Of a stretch of DNA of 64,000 nt, positions 21,251-24,074 are shown in pieces. Position numbers and translations under genes: made by a program. How positions within the stretch are numbered: the stretch's first letter is position 1; the number at the start of each line of letters is the position of its first letter. The notes below the pieces were generated by a model. It saw only the letters and a program-made list of their open reading frames with translations, searched no databases and had not been told where the DNA came from. This DNA comes from Croceibacterium sp. TMG7-5b_MA50 (GTDB lineage: Bacteria; Pseudomonadota; Alphaproteobacteria; Sphingomonadales; Sphingomonadaceae), in assembly GCF_039830145.1 (NCBI RefSeq), contig NZ_CP156082.1, positions 1,010,001 through 1,074,000 on the forward strand. The letters run 5' to 3'.

Positions 21251-22684
21251 TTATCCGGTCATTTCAGCGAGGCGCTCAGCCACCGCCTGCAGGTCGGCCT
21301 GGAACATCCGCTCCTGCTCCTCTCGCGCCGGTCCGTCCAACCGCAACAGATATGATGGGTGCGCCGTGATCCACAATTCGGCGCCATCTTCCAGCACGTG
21401 CGGCACGCCACGCGCCTTGCTGACGCTGACGGTCTTGCCCAGCATGCCACGCGCAGCGCTGGCCCCCATGGCCAGGATGAGCCGCGGCTGCACGATGTGC
21501 CGCTCGCTTTCAATCCACCAGCGGCAGATGTCGATTTCCTTCGCGGTGGGTGTCTGGTGCAGCCGGCGCTTTCCACGATCGACGAACTTGAAGTGCTTGA
21601 CGGCATTGGTCACGTATACCGTACCGCGATCGATGCCCGCCCGCTGCATATGGGCATCGAAGACCTGCCCGGCCGGTCCCACGAATGGGCGACCCTGCCG
21701 ATCCTCCTGATCGCCCGGCTGCTCGCCCACGATCATCAGCGTGGCATTGGGTGGCCCTTCCCCCATGACGGCCTGGTTGTCGAGCTCGCCGATCGGGCAT
21801 TTGCGACACCCATGGATGGCCCGATCAATCGCTGGCAGCGTGGCTGGCCGCTCCTCGAACTCCAACGCACCTGCCTCGACCATCGCTGCCTCCCGGGCCT
21901 GAGCGCCCGCGACCAGCTCCGGAATGAGGGCACTCTCGGGCATGTTCTTCCAGTATTTGCGCGGCATCTCCTTGAGCATGGCACCGATCTTGAGCCGCGC
22001 GGGATTGAAGATGGAAGCATAGTACCGGCGCCACAGATCCTCCGCCGGGTCGCCATCAGGCGCATCGCCACGCTCAGCCGGTGGCCCTTCGCCAAGCACC
22101 TCGCCATCCCAGTGCAGCGAGCCACGCGGGGTCAGAATGGACCACCGCATATTGCTGAAACGGTTGACGAAGAAGGCGGCATTGCTGCGCAGAATATGGT
22201 GCTCGGGTTCGAACCACGCGACGTAGCGTTCCTGCCCATCCGCGTCTTCCATGGCGCGAAAGCGAACAAAGGCGCGCATCTTGTGCTTGTCTCGCCGGAC
22301 CGATCGGGCGAGTTCATCGAGGCGCCGCACGTCATTATCGGTGCGATCATCCAACAGATTGCGGTTCCCCTGCAAACGCCAGAGCAACCGATAGAGTAAC
22401 GCAAAGCGGGCCGGATCTGAATGGCAGATGGCGGCTTCGGCCGCCTGGATGAACGGCTTGCTGGCCCGTACCATGGGCGCATTTGCTGGCGGGAGCGGCA
22501 ATGGCTGGTCGCCAGCGGCAAACAGATCGCCCGTGCTGCCCGGCTCACCCCAGGCAATCTGGTCAGGGGGCACCCGGCACTGCACCAACACGCGCGCGGC
22601 ATCGCGCCAGAAGGTAAAATCGTCCGGCGCCGGCACGTTCACGGCATAATGCGAATCCTTGTCGGCTTGCGGCAGCATGCTCAT
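21251..22684 (-). CDS. DUF4130-UdgX fusion, uracil-DNA binding protein
   Basis: A 477-residue fusion. Residues about 15-250 form the DUF4130 (TIGR03915-like) domain that partners with the radical SAM gene upstream. Residues about 285-477 are a UdgX-type uracil-DNA glycosylase-fold domain: G-E-Q-P-G-D-Q-E-D (320-328), the R-loop K-R-R-L-H-Q-T-P (372-379) with H376, the histidine known in UdgX to bond covalently to the abasic sugar, and H-P-S-Y-L-L-R (442-448). There are C-x2-C cysteines at 293 and 296, plausibly part of the iron-sulfur site. The ATG overlaps the upstream stop by ATGA. The shared promoter has a LexA box. Confidence 0.9.
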   Translation of the reverse strand: MSMLPQADKDSHYAVNVPAPDDFTFWRDAARVLVQCRVPPDQIAWGEPGSTGDLFAAGDQPLPLPPANAPMVRASKPFIQAAEAAICHSDPARFALLYRLLWRLQGNRNLLDDRTDNDVRRLDELARSVRRDKHKMRAFVRFRAMEDADGQERYVAWFEPEHHILRSNAAFFVNRFSNMRWSILTPRGSLHWDGEVLGEGPPAERGDAPDGDPAEDLWRRYYASIFNPARLKIGAMLKEMPRKYWKNMPESALIPELVAGAQAREAAMVEAGALEFEERPATLPAIDRAIHGCRKCPIGELDNQAVMGEGPPNATLMIVGEQPGDQEDRQGRPFVGPAGQVFDAHMQRAGIDRGTVYVTNAVKHFKFVDRGKRRLHQTPTAKEIDICRWWIESERHIVQPRLILAMGASAARGMLGKTVSVSKARGVPHVLEDGAELWITAHPSYLLRLDGPAREEQERMFQADLQAVAERLAEMTG

Positions 22685-23940
22685 GCCGCGAACAGTTCCA
22701 GCTGCTCCTCCGCCGGAGGTGCGACCAGGGACTTGAGGTCGGCACGATCGGTCAGCAGTGTGGGCCGCCAGTCCGCGGTGACAATGAAGGGGCGGACCTT
22801 GGCGATAGAGACGGTGAGCTTGCCGACATCCTCCAGCCGCAAGGTGCGCTGCCGGCGCGCAGCGATCAACTGGTTGACCGCGCGAACACCAAGACCGGGT
22901 ACCCGGAGCAACGCTTCCCGCCCAGCGCGATTGACATTCACCGGGAAGCGGTCGCGAAACTTGAGTGCCCAAGCCAACTTGGGATCGATGTCGAGCGGCA
23001 GCATGCCATCGGCACCAGTCGCCTGCATCACCTCTGCCGCGGAGTAATCGTAGAAACGCATCAGCCAGTCGGATTGATACAGCCGGTGTTCCCGCATCAA
23101 AGGAGGGCGCTTCAGCGGCAGGACGGCACTGGCATCCGGGATCGGACTAAACGCGGAATAGTAGACACGGCGCAGGCCGAAGCCATCGTAAAGGCGGTTT
23201 GCCTTACCCACGATGTCGGCGTCACTCGCCGCGTCAGCACCTACGATCATCTGCGTTGACTGCCCTGCCGGCGCGAAGCGGGGTGCATGGCGGAAGCGCT
23301 TCGTCTCGTCGCGGTTCTGCGCGATATGCTCCTTAACCTCGCCCATCGCCCCTTCGATGCGCCCGGTGTTCTTGTCCGGCGCCAGTCTCGCCAGACCGGC
23401 ATCGGTCGGCAGTTCCACATTGATGGACACGCGATCGGCGTAGAGCCCCGCCTGATGCACCAGCTCCGCATCCGCATCGGGAATGGTCTTCAGATGGATG
23501 TAGCCACGGAAATCATGCTCCTCCCTGAGGATGCGAGCGACCTCAACCAGCTGCTCCATCGTGTGGTTTGAGCTTTTCACAATGCCAGAGGAGAGGAACA
23601 GCCCTTCTATGTAGTTGCGTCGGTAGAAGGAGAGCGTCAGATCGGCCACTTCCTGCGGCGTGAACCGGGCGCGTACCACATTGGAACTCGCCCGATTGAT
23701 GCAGTAATGACAGTCAAAGATGCAATGATTGGTCAGCAGGACCTTCAGCAGGGAAATGCACCGGCCGTCCGGGGCGTAGGCATGACAGATGCCCATACCT
23801 TCAGTGGACCCGATGCCCTTCCCTCCTGAATCCTTGCTGTTGCGTTTCGCCGTGCCGGAGGACGCGCAGGAGGCATCGTACTTCGCGGCATCAGCCAGGA
23901 TGGCGAGGCGATCGATGATGCTGCTCTTCATTCGTTCCAT
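22681..23940 (-). CDS. Putative DNA modification/repair radical SAM protein
   Basis: About 419 residues, matching the TIGR03916 family that is regularly paired with DUF4130/UdgX genes. The radical SAM cluster motif C-x3-C-x2-C is C73-I-F-D-C77-H-Y-C80. A helix-hairpin-helix DNA-binding segment (R-V-P-G-L-G-V-R-A-V-N-Q-L) lies near the C-terminus. It is expected to use S-adenosylmethionine radical chemistry on damaged or modified DNA, but the reaction is unknown. Starts at 23940 or 23931 are both possible; the LexA box overlaps the first, which favours a very short or leaderless transcript. Confidence 0.87.
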   Translation of the reverse strand: MERMKSSIIDRLAILADAAKYDASCASSGTAKRNSKDSGGKGIGSTEGMGICHAYAPDGRCISLLKVLLTNHCIFDCHYCINRASSNVVRARFTPQEVADLTLSFYRRNYIEGLFLSSGIVKSSNHTMEQLVEVARILREEHDFRGYIHLKTIPDADAELVHQAGLYADRVSINVELPTDAGLARLAPDKNTGRIEGAMGEVKEHIAQNRDETKRFRHAPRFAPAGQSTQMIVGADAASDADIVGKANRLYDGFGLRRVYYSAFSPIPDASAVLPLKRPPLMREHRLYQSDWLMRFYDYSAAEVMQATGADGMLPLDIDPKLAWALKFRDRFPVNVNRAGREALLRVPGLGVRAVNQLIAARRQRTLRLEDVGKLTVSIAKVRPFIVTADWRPTLLTDRADLKSLVAPPAEEQLELFAA

Positions 23941-23948
23941 ATATGTTC
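23934..23948 (-). promoter_or_regulatory. LexA (SOS) box
   Basis: On the minus strand the site reads GAAC-ATATATG-GAAC, a perfect alphaproteobacterial LexA site (GAAC-N7-GAAC). It overlaps the first possible start codon of the radical SAM gene, so LexA bound here should block the radical SAM-UdgX operon until DNA damage. Confidence 0.8.
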
Positions 23949-24074
23949 TACACCGCTCGACAGCTAGCGCTTTCTTCTTGCTCACCTTTCCATCCGGCAA
24001 CGCAGGTGGGCACTTTTTGTCCCCGCCAGAGGTTTCGTGACCGCCACCTTCTCTACGGCAGGAGACCCATACGG

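Follow-up and report, generated by a model that had tools for sequence, protein, structure and literature searches.

A predicted LexA-controlled operon for a radical SAM protein and a DUF4130-UdgX fusion in Croceibacterium

The operon and its products

The window, that is, the whole 64-kb stretch of Croceibacterium DNA analyzed here, contains on its minus strand a two-gene operon for a radical SAM protein and a DUF4130-UdgX fusion protein, preceded by an exact match to GAAC-N7-GAAC. Its features are as follows.

23962 to 23967, minus strand: probable -35 element CTAGCT (family consensus CTNGNC), assigned from its fixed distance from the box
23934 to 23948, minus strand: putative LexA operator GAACATATATGGAAC, an exact GAAC-N7-GAAC whose ATATA core is also likely to be the -10 element
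22681 to 23931, minus strand: gene for the radical SAM protein, 416 amino acids, TIGR03916, assigned by profile match and conserved cysteines
21251 to 22684, minus strand: gene for the DUF4130-UdgX fusion, 477 amino acids, translationally coupled by ATGA, assigned by profile matches
21935 to 22627, minus strand: DUF4130 / TIGR03915 region, residues 20-250 of the fusion, assigned by profile match
21281 to 21928, minus strand: UdgX domain, residues 253-468 of the fusion (NCBIfam TIGR03914), assigned by profile match and motifs

As stated in the original prediction, GAACATATATGGAAC (23934-23948, minus strand) matches GAAC-N7-GAAC in full, and the two genes are coupled, the TGA of the radical SAM gene overlapping the ATG of the DUF4130-UdgX gene as ATGA (22681-22684). 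The box had also been said to overlap the start of the operon, but it ends 2 nt before the conserved ATG (23929-23931, minus strand) of the radical SAM gene. There is an in-frame ATG within the box of the Croceibacterium genome; it is non-conserved, and box and start would overlap only if that codon is used.

The radical SAM protein matches the TIGR03916 profile with 568.8 bits (curated cut-off, 343.5) and has the cluster motif C70-x3-C74-x2-C77 (CxxxCxxC), in which C70, C74 and C77 are invariant. On the N-terminal side, 28 of 29 sequences from several phyla retain C22, C49, H50 and C58; these residues could bind a second metal cluster. The one exception, a divergent relative in Gemmatirosa kalamazoonensis (L301, 2833-4098), has neither the three extra N-terminal cysteines nor a DUF4130 neighbour, and is a natural contrast for the role of these cysteines. 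The AlphaFold model of the Croceibacterium protein (pLDDT 84, pTM 0.83) is of low confidence at residues 23-48, the region of the extra cysteines. As for the helix-hairpin-helix ascribed to this protein, a region resembling such a motif lies toward the C-terminus, at about residues 325-381, and the assignment is plausible but the matches to ComEA and RuvA behind it are weak (E 0.02-0.04). Both a sequence search of the PDB and Foldseek gave generic radical SAM folds only as a hint to the substrate, which therefore cannot be inferred from those matches.

In the fusion protein, DUF4130 (Pfam boundaries, residues 92-250) scores 136.4 bits against a cut-off of 27, TIGR03915 scores 219 bits against 112.25, and TIGR03914, which represents UdgX, scores 313 bits against a curated cut-off of 189.95. 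The last domain carries what defines the UdgX family (PMC10359453), namely motif A GEQPG (at 320), an R-loop with a terminal histidine (KRRLH, ending in H376) and motif B HPSxLLR (HPSYLLR at 442). H376 had been named beforehand as the R-loop histidine, and its numbering is right; the covalent H109 is the residue that aligns with it in M. smegmatis UdgX, and across an alignment of 61 fusion proteins neither it nor R374 nor GEQPG varies. An apparent loss of this histidine in a few relatives proved to be an artefact, as KFRLH, KLRLH, KWRIH and KQRIH all end in H, and that in L137 belongs to a frameshifted copy. For the AlphaFold model of the fusion (pLDDT 90, pTM 0.65), the top Foldseek rows are mostly members of the UDG superfamily, with a TM-score of 0.88 for UdgX, and nothing recognisable as a structural relative of DUF4130 was found among them. 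The family-A DNA polymerase of phage phiLo (PDB 9qhs) likewise contains a UDG-like domain that is a relative of the UdgX region. The Croceibacterium genome has two other UDG-superfamily genes, and thus UdgX is not its only uracil-glycosylase relative.

Position and conservation of the LexA box

A bare GAAC-N7-GAAC is not a rare sequence. It is found three times in the window, where 1.1 are expected, and 82 times in the whole genome of 3.24 Mb, for which the reversed control gives 33; with 82 copies genome-wide, the count of the bare pattern was dropped as evidence for LexA control, and proof must therefore rest on position and conservation. As for position, the operon has the pattern near its start codon, as is the rule for the alphaproteobacterial LexA regulon, and its own genome encodes LexA (C1:798456-799124) and has a copy of the box both at recA and at lexA, where it lies 35 nt ahead of the coding stretch that was matched. 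Boxes are also found at recN, imuA, dinB and a UvrD/PcrA-type helicase gene, among others, and a further one precedes a gene that we read as mmcB. Among those exact matches of the genome that were examined with a scoring matrix built only from the relatives' copies of the radical SAM operon, the operon box took the top score of 29.7 bits, with the runner-up at 26.2. The two next-best-scoring boxes are at C1:663707-663721 (L018) and C1:1874264-1874278 (L197); one of them stands just before a terminator-like stretch with no clear gene, and the other directly adjoins the start codon (ATG) of an ORF for which NCBIfam has no match. In addition, a second radical SAM gene, which belongs to the PA0069 family and is SplB-like, starts at a GAAC-N7-GAAC (C1:1418591-1418605, L189), so that two radical SAM proteins of the Croceibacterium genome are probably under SOS control.

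How well is the box kept among relatives? The TIGR03916 family is present in four of the five genus members searched, in 153 of 250 genomes of the same taxonomic family and, counted over the curated cut-off, in 18 of 289 genomes of the class. The original prediction depended on the site being kept in close relatives, and so it is: of 131 alphaproteobacterial genomes for which the upstream region was available, 129 have the box ahead of the operon, in either orientation and at most 250 bases from the start, while same-sized windows elsewhere in those loci have it in 11 cases out of 1684 (0.65%). A second set, consisting of named contigs, has the box in 77 of 80 loci; it overlaps the former set in some genomes, and the two are not summed. 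In 99 of 125 loci, exactly two bases separate the box from the start codon that follows it. Because the box recurs at the same place against so low a background, the operon is almost certainly under LexA (SOS) control, as far as comparison of genomes can tell.

The surroundings of the box suggest how such control would work. When the loci are aligned on the box, only two conserved islands are seen upstream, the box itself and CTNGNC, which spans -34 to -29 as counted from the box end, and the bases between them are close to random. The T and G of the latter island keep the same distance from the box in 87 of 112 loci, with neighbouring offsets accounting for 23 at most. The spacer of the box begins with ATATA in 70 of 125 loci, and TA occupies its positions 2 and 3 in 117 of the 125; the recA, lexA, recN and dinB boxes of the Croceibacterium genome lack this feature. 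The simplest reading of these sequences appears to be a -35 element at CTNGNC and a -10 element at the TATA inside the box, 18 bp apart. If the TATA is the -10 element, LexA would cover it directly, and transcription is predicted to start at about the ATG to give a leaderless mRNA.

Outside the class, another motif is found at the same gene. In beta- and gammaproteobacteria, the LexA operator is of the type CTGT-N8-ACAG. A survey of LexA boxes at the gene pair in other genomes had been proposed as a check; besides the 129 of 131 in Alphaproteobacteria, exact CTGT-N8-ACAG is found near the beginning of the radical SAM gene in 16 of 20 proteobacterial loci outside the class, with a near match in one more, and the operon of Caballeronia, located on a large replicon, has this motif upstream, too. 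The presence of two unrelated LexA motifs at one operon thus indicates strong selection for its SOS control. Neither motif was found at the radical SAM gene in xanthomonads and look-alikes (Xanthomonas dyei, L295; L330; L331), which have in common a palindrome, GTCTCA...TGAGAC, just upstream of the start; this palindrome may be the operator of another regulator or the terminator of the upstream gene. With simple patterns, no recognised box was found in the loci sampled from Bacteroidota, Fusobacterium, Gemmatimonadota and Acinetobacter.

Composition of the module among lineages

In almost all the lineages sampled, the radical SAM protein is paired with DUF4130, Gemmatirosa (L301) being the sole unpaired exception seen, while UdgX is not always there. 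In Bacteroidota (L297, L298), Fusobacterium (L300), Acinetobacter (L299) and a further proteobacterium (L329), the next gene encodes DUF4130 only, in proteins of 243-301 residues with no UDG domain. Operons of this DUF4130-only type are found also within Alphaproteobacteria, where a LexA box is present in eight of the nine whose downstream sequence is complete; among other proteobacteria, eight such operons have CTGT-N8-ACAG. Since UdgX is absent from many operons, some of which are still LexA-boxed, the SOS link belongs to the radical SAM-DUF4130 pair. It is thus likely, from these comparisons, that radical SAM and DUF4130 make up the core with UdgX as an accessory, and UdgX, in which H376 is conserved, is probably an accessory capture domain. 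Of the SOS-induced radical SAM/UdgX pair originally proposed, SOS control is strongly backed by the conservation of the box, whereas radical SAM plus UdgX as the functional unit finds no support, the constant partner being DUF4130.

The two genes do not always stay together. In six members of the taxonomic family the DUF4130-UdgX gene is not the next one after the radical SAM gene. Even with the partners apart, a DUF4130 gene is found at another place in the genome, as seen in 10 out of 10 genomes of the taxonomic family checked. The separated DUF4130-UdgX genes that were examined have no box of their own upstream, even with one mismatch allowed, so that strict co-induction is not universal. 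In G297, G318 and G459 (L350, L354 and L353, respectively), the unboxed DUF4130-UdgX gene is located far from the boxed radical SAM gene or on another contig, and only one half of the pair may be SOS-induced in these genomes. In other loci, from several genomes of the taxonomic family (L121, L109, L125, L161 and L039), a small gene is inserted between the radical SAM and DUF4130-UdgX genes; its product, recognized by eye as hemerythrin-like from H..E motifs, is possibly an iron/oxygen sensor inside an SOS operon.

A possible mechanism and its alternatives

Then, what would this operon do when DNA is damaged? LexA self-cleaves on RecA filaments, radical SAM enzymes generate a 5′-deoxyadenosyl radical, and UdgX covalently captures a uracil-derived abasic site, for which it needs the motifs that the Croceibacterium domain retains. 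We consider, with a probability of roughly 0.78, that this is a LexA-repressed, DNA-damage-inducible operon whose core is radical SAM and DUF4130 with UdgX fused on. LexA sitting on the box, a conserved sequence that would double as the -10 element, would keep the operon repressed; upon damage, RecA-stimulated self-cleavage of LexA would free the promoter, and both proteins would be made together. Radical SAM and DUF4130 might then act jointly on a damaged or modified DNA base through 5′-deoxyadenosyl-radical chemistry, with the helix-hairpin-helix presumably giving DNA binding. Most likely, UdgX would cap uracils or abasic sites that the core pair meets or makes, and such sites would thereby escape being cut during SOS-stage replication. 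Any specific lesion chemistry assigned to the core pair is a tentative guess. In the same speculative vein, the radical SAM-DUF4130 pair might be a widespread, previously uncharacterised glycosylase-free SOS lesion enzyme, to which some lineages have added the UdgX cap so as to process and then shield, and in which C22, C49 and C58 would hold a second metal cluster.

Several other explanations have to be weighed. The pair might instead be a module for mutagenesis or damage tolerance that modifies bases, for example thymine, to aid error-prone polymerases. DUF4130 has indeed been predicted to be a mutagenesis-related enzyme, possibly modifying thymine and tied to radical SAM proteins and UDGs (PMC3765255), and the error-prone polymerase genes imuA and dinB have the same box in the Croceibacterium genome; but a common regulon does not imply a common reaction, and no linkage to imuAB-dnaE2 was seen in the flanks of the operon, so we hold this explanation to be rather unlikely. 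It is also conceivable that UdgX is the center of the system, capping abasic sites, and that the radical SAM-DUF4130 pair serves to undo or resolve the crosslink between UdgX and DNA or to restore the site. The covalent histidine, invariant in 61 of 61 aligned fusions, fits such a role, as does the proposal that UdgX protects abasic sites and that its adducts are resolved by RecA-dependent or protease pathways (PMC10359453). Radical SAM-DUF4130 pairs free of UDG in several lineages, some with LexA-type boxes, make it improbable.

Could the operon be a DNA-modifying or anti-phage system that came under SOS regulation by happenstance? Many large replicons that are classed as plasmids have copies, as do a few records of phage collections, and modification is part of the NCBIfam name. 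The operon matched no PADLOC model, however, its LexA box is near-universal, and within the taxonomic family its presence in 153 of 250 genomes is a distribution more like that of a repair gene, which renders this idea very improbable. As for a box that is a mere chance match outside LexA control, its abundance as a bare pattern is the point in its favor, but both position and sequence are kept in 129 of 131 genomes while the flanking bases are near random, and other proteobacteria have a different LexA motif at the same gene; this explanation is already essentially refuted.

Relation to known systems and perspectives

We take COG4277 to be the radical SAM/HhH family. SOS regulation of a UDG-based COG1573-COG4277 operon has been reported for Verrucomicrobia and Alphaproteobacteria, in Caulobacter, according to PMC8565304 (citing Erill 2016 and da Rocha 2008), and has been predicted for Bacteroidetes (PMC8565304). 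This published operon (PMC8565304 and its references 7 and 65) is the same two-gene kind under LexA, Alphaproteobacteria included. SOS control of the operon is not new, as it was published earlier for Caulobacter and Verrucomicrobia by the account in PMC8565304, and the Croceibacterium operon is another instance, with an exact box, of a known SOS-regulated gene pair. A difference is that the published operon is described as a UDG base-excision system, whereas the two Bacteroidota loci examined here have a DUF4130-only partner. LexA control has also been predicted for CAC3343-CAC3344 of Clostridium acetobutylicum (PMC3828012), whose LexA motif is a different, Gram-positive one.

Each protein has a better-known relative or counterpart. 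UdgX of M. smegmatis (PDB 6ail, 6ajo) shares about 42% identity over the domain, a TM-score of 0.88, GEQPG and KRR(I/L)H with the Croceibacterium domain; the former is a single-domain protein, while the latter follows DUF4130 in a fusion whose gene is coupled to that of a radical SAM protein. Spore photoproduct lyase (SplB, COG1533) is, like the protein of the operon, a radical SAM protein linked to DNA repair, and SplB-type genes are SOS-regulated in several groups (PMC8565304). However, SplB is not among the 50 best fold matches of the operon's radical SAM protein, which belongs to a different family and has the extra N-terminal cysteines and the C-terminal helix-hairpin-helix-like region.

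Our literature search had partial coverage and supports no claim of priority; within it, the optional nature of UdgX, the box serving as the -10 element and CTGT-N8-ACAG at this operon were not found stated. The physiological role of UdgX has been described as largely unknown (PMC10359453), and an SOS-induced radical SAM-DUF4130 pair that is able to exist without UdgX is a place to look for it. Comparison between lineages with and without the UDG domain would be a direct test both of UdgX and of an uncharacterised radical SAM DNA enzyme.
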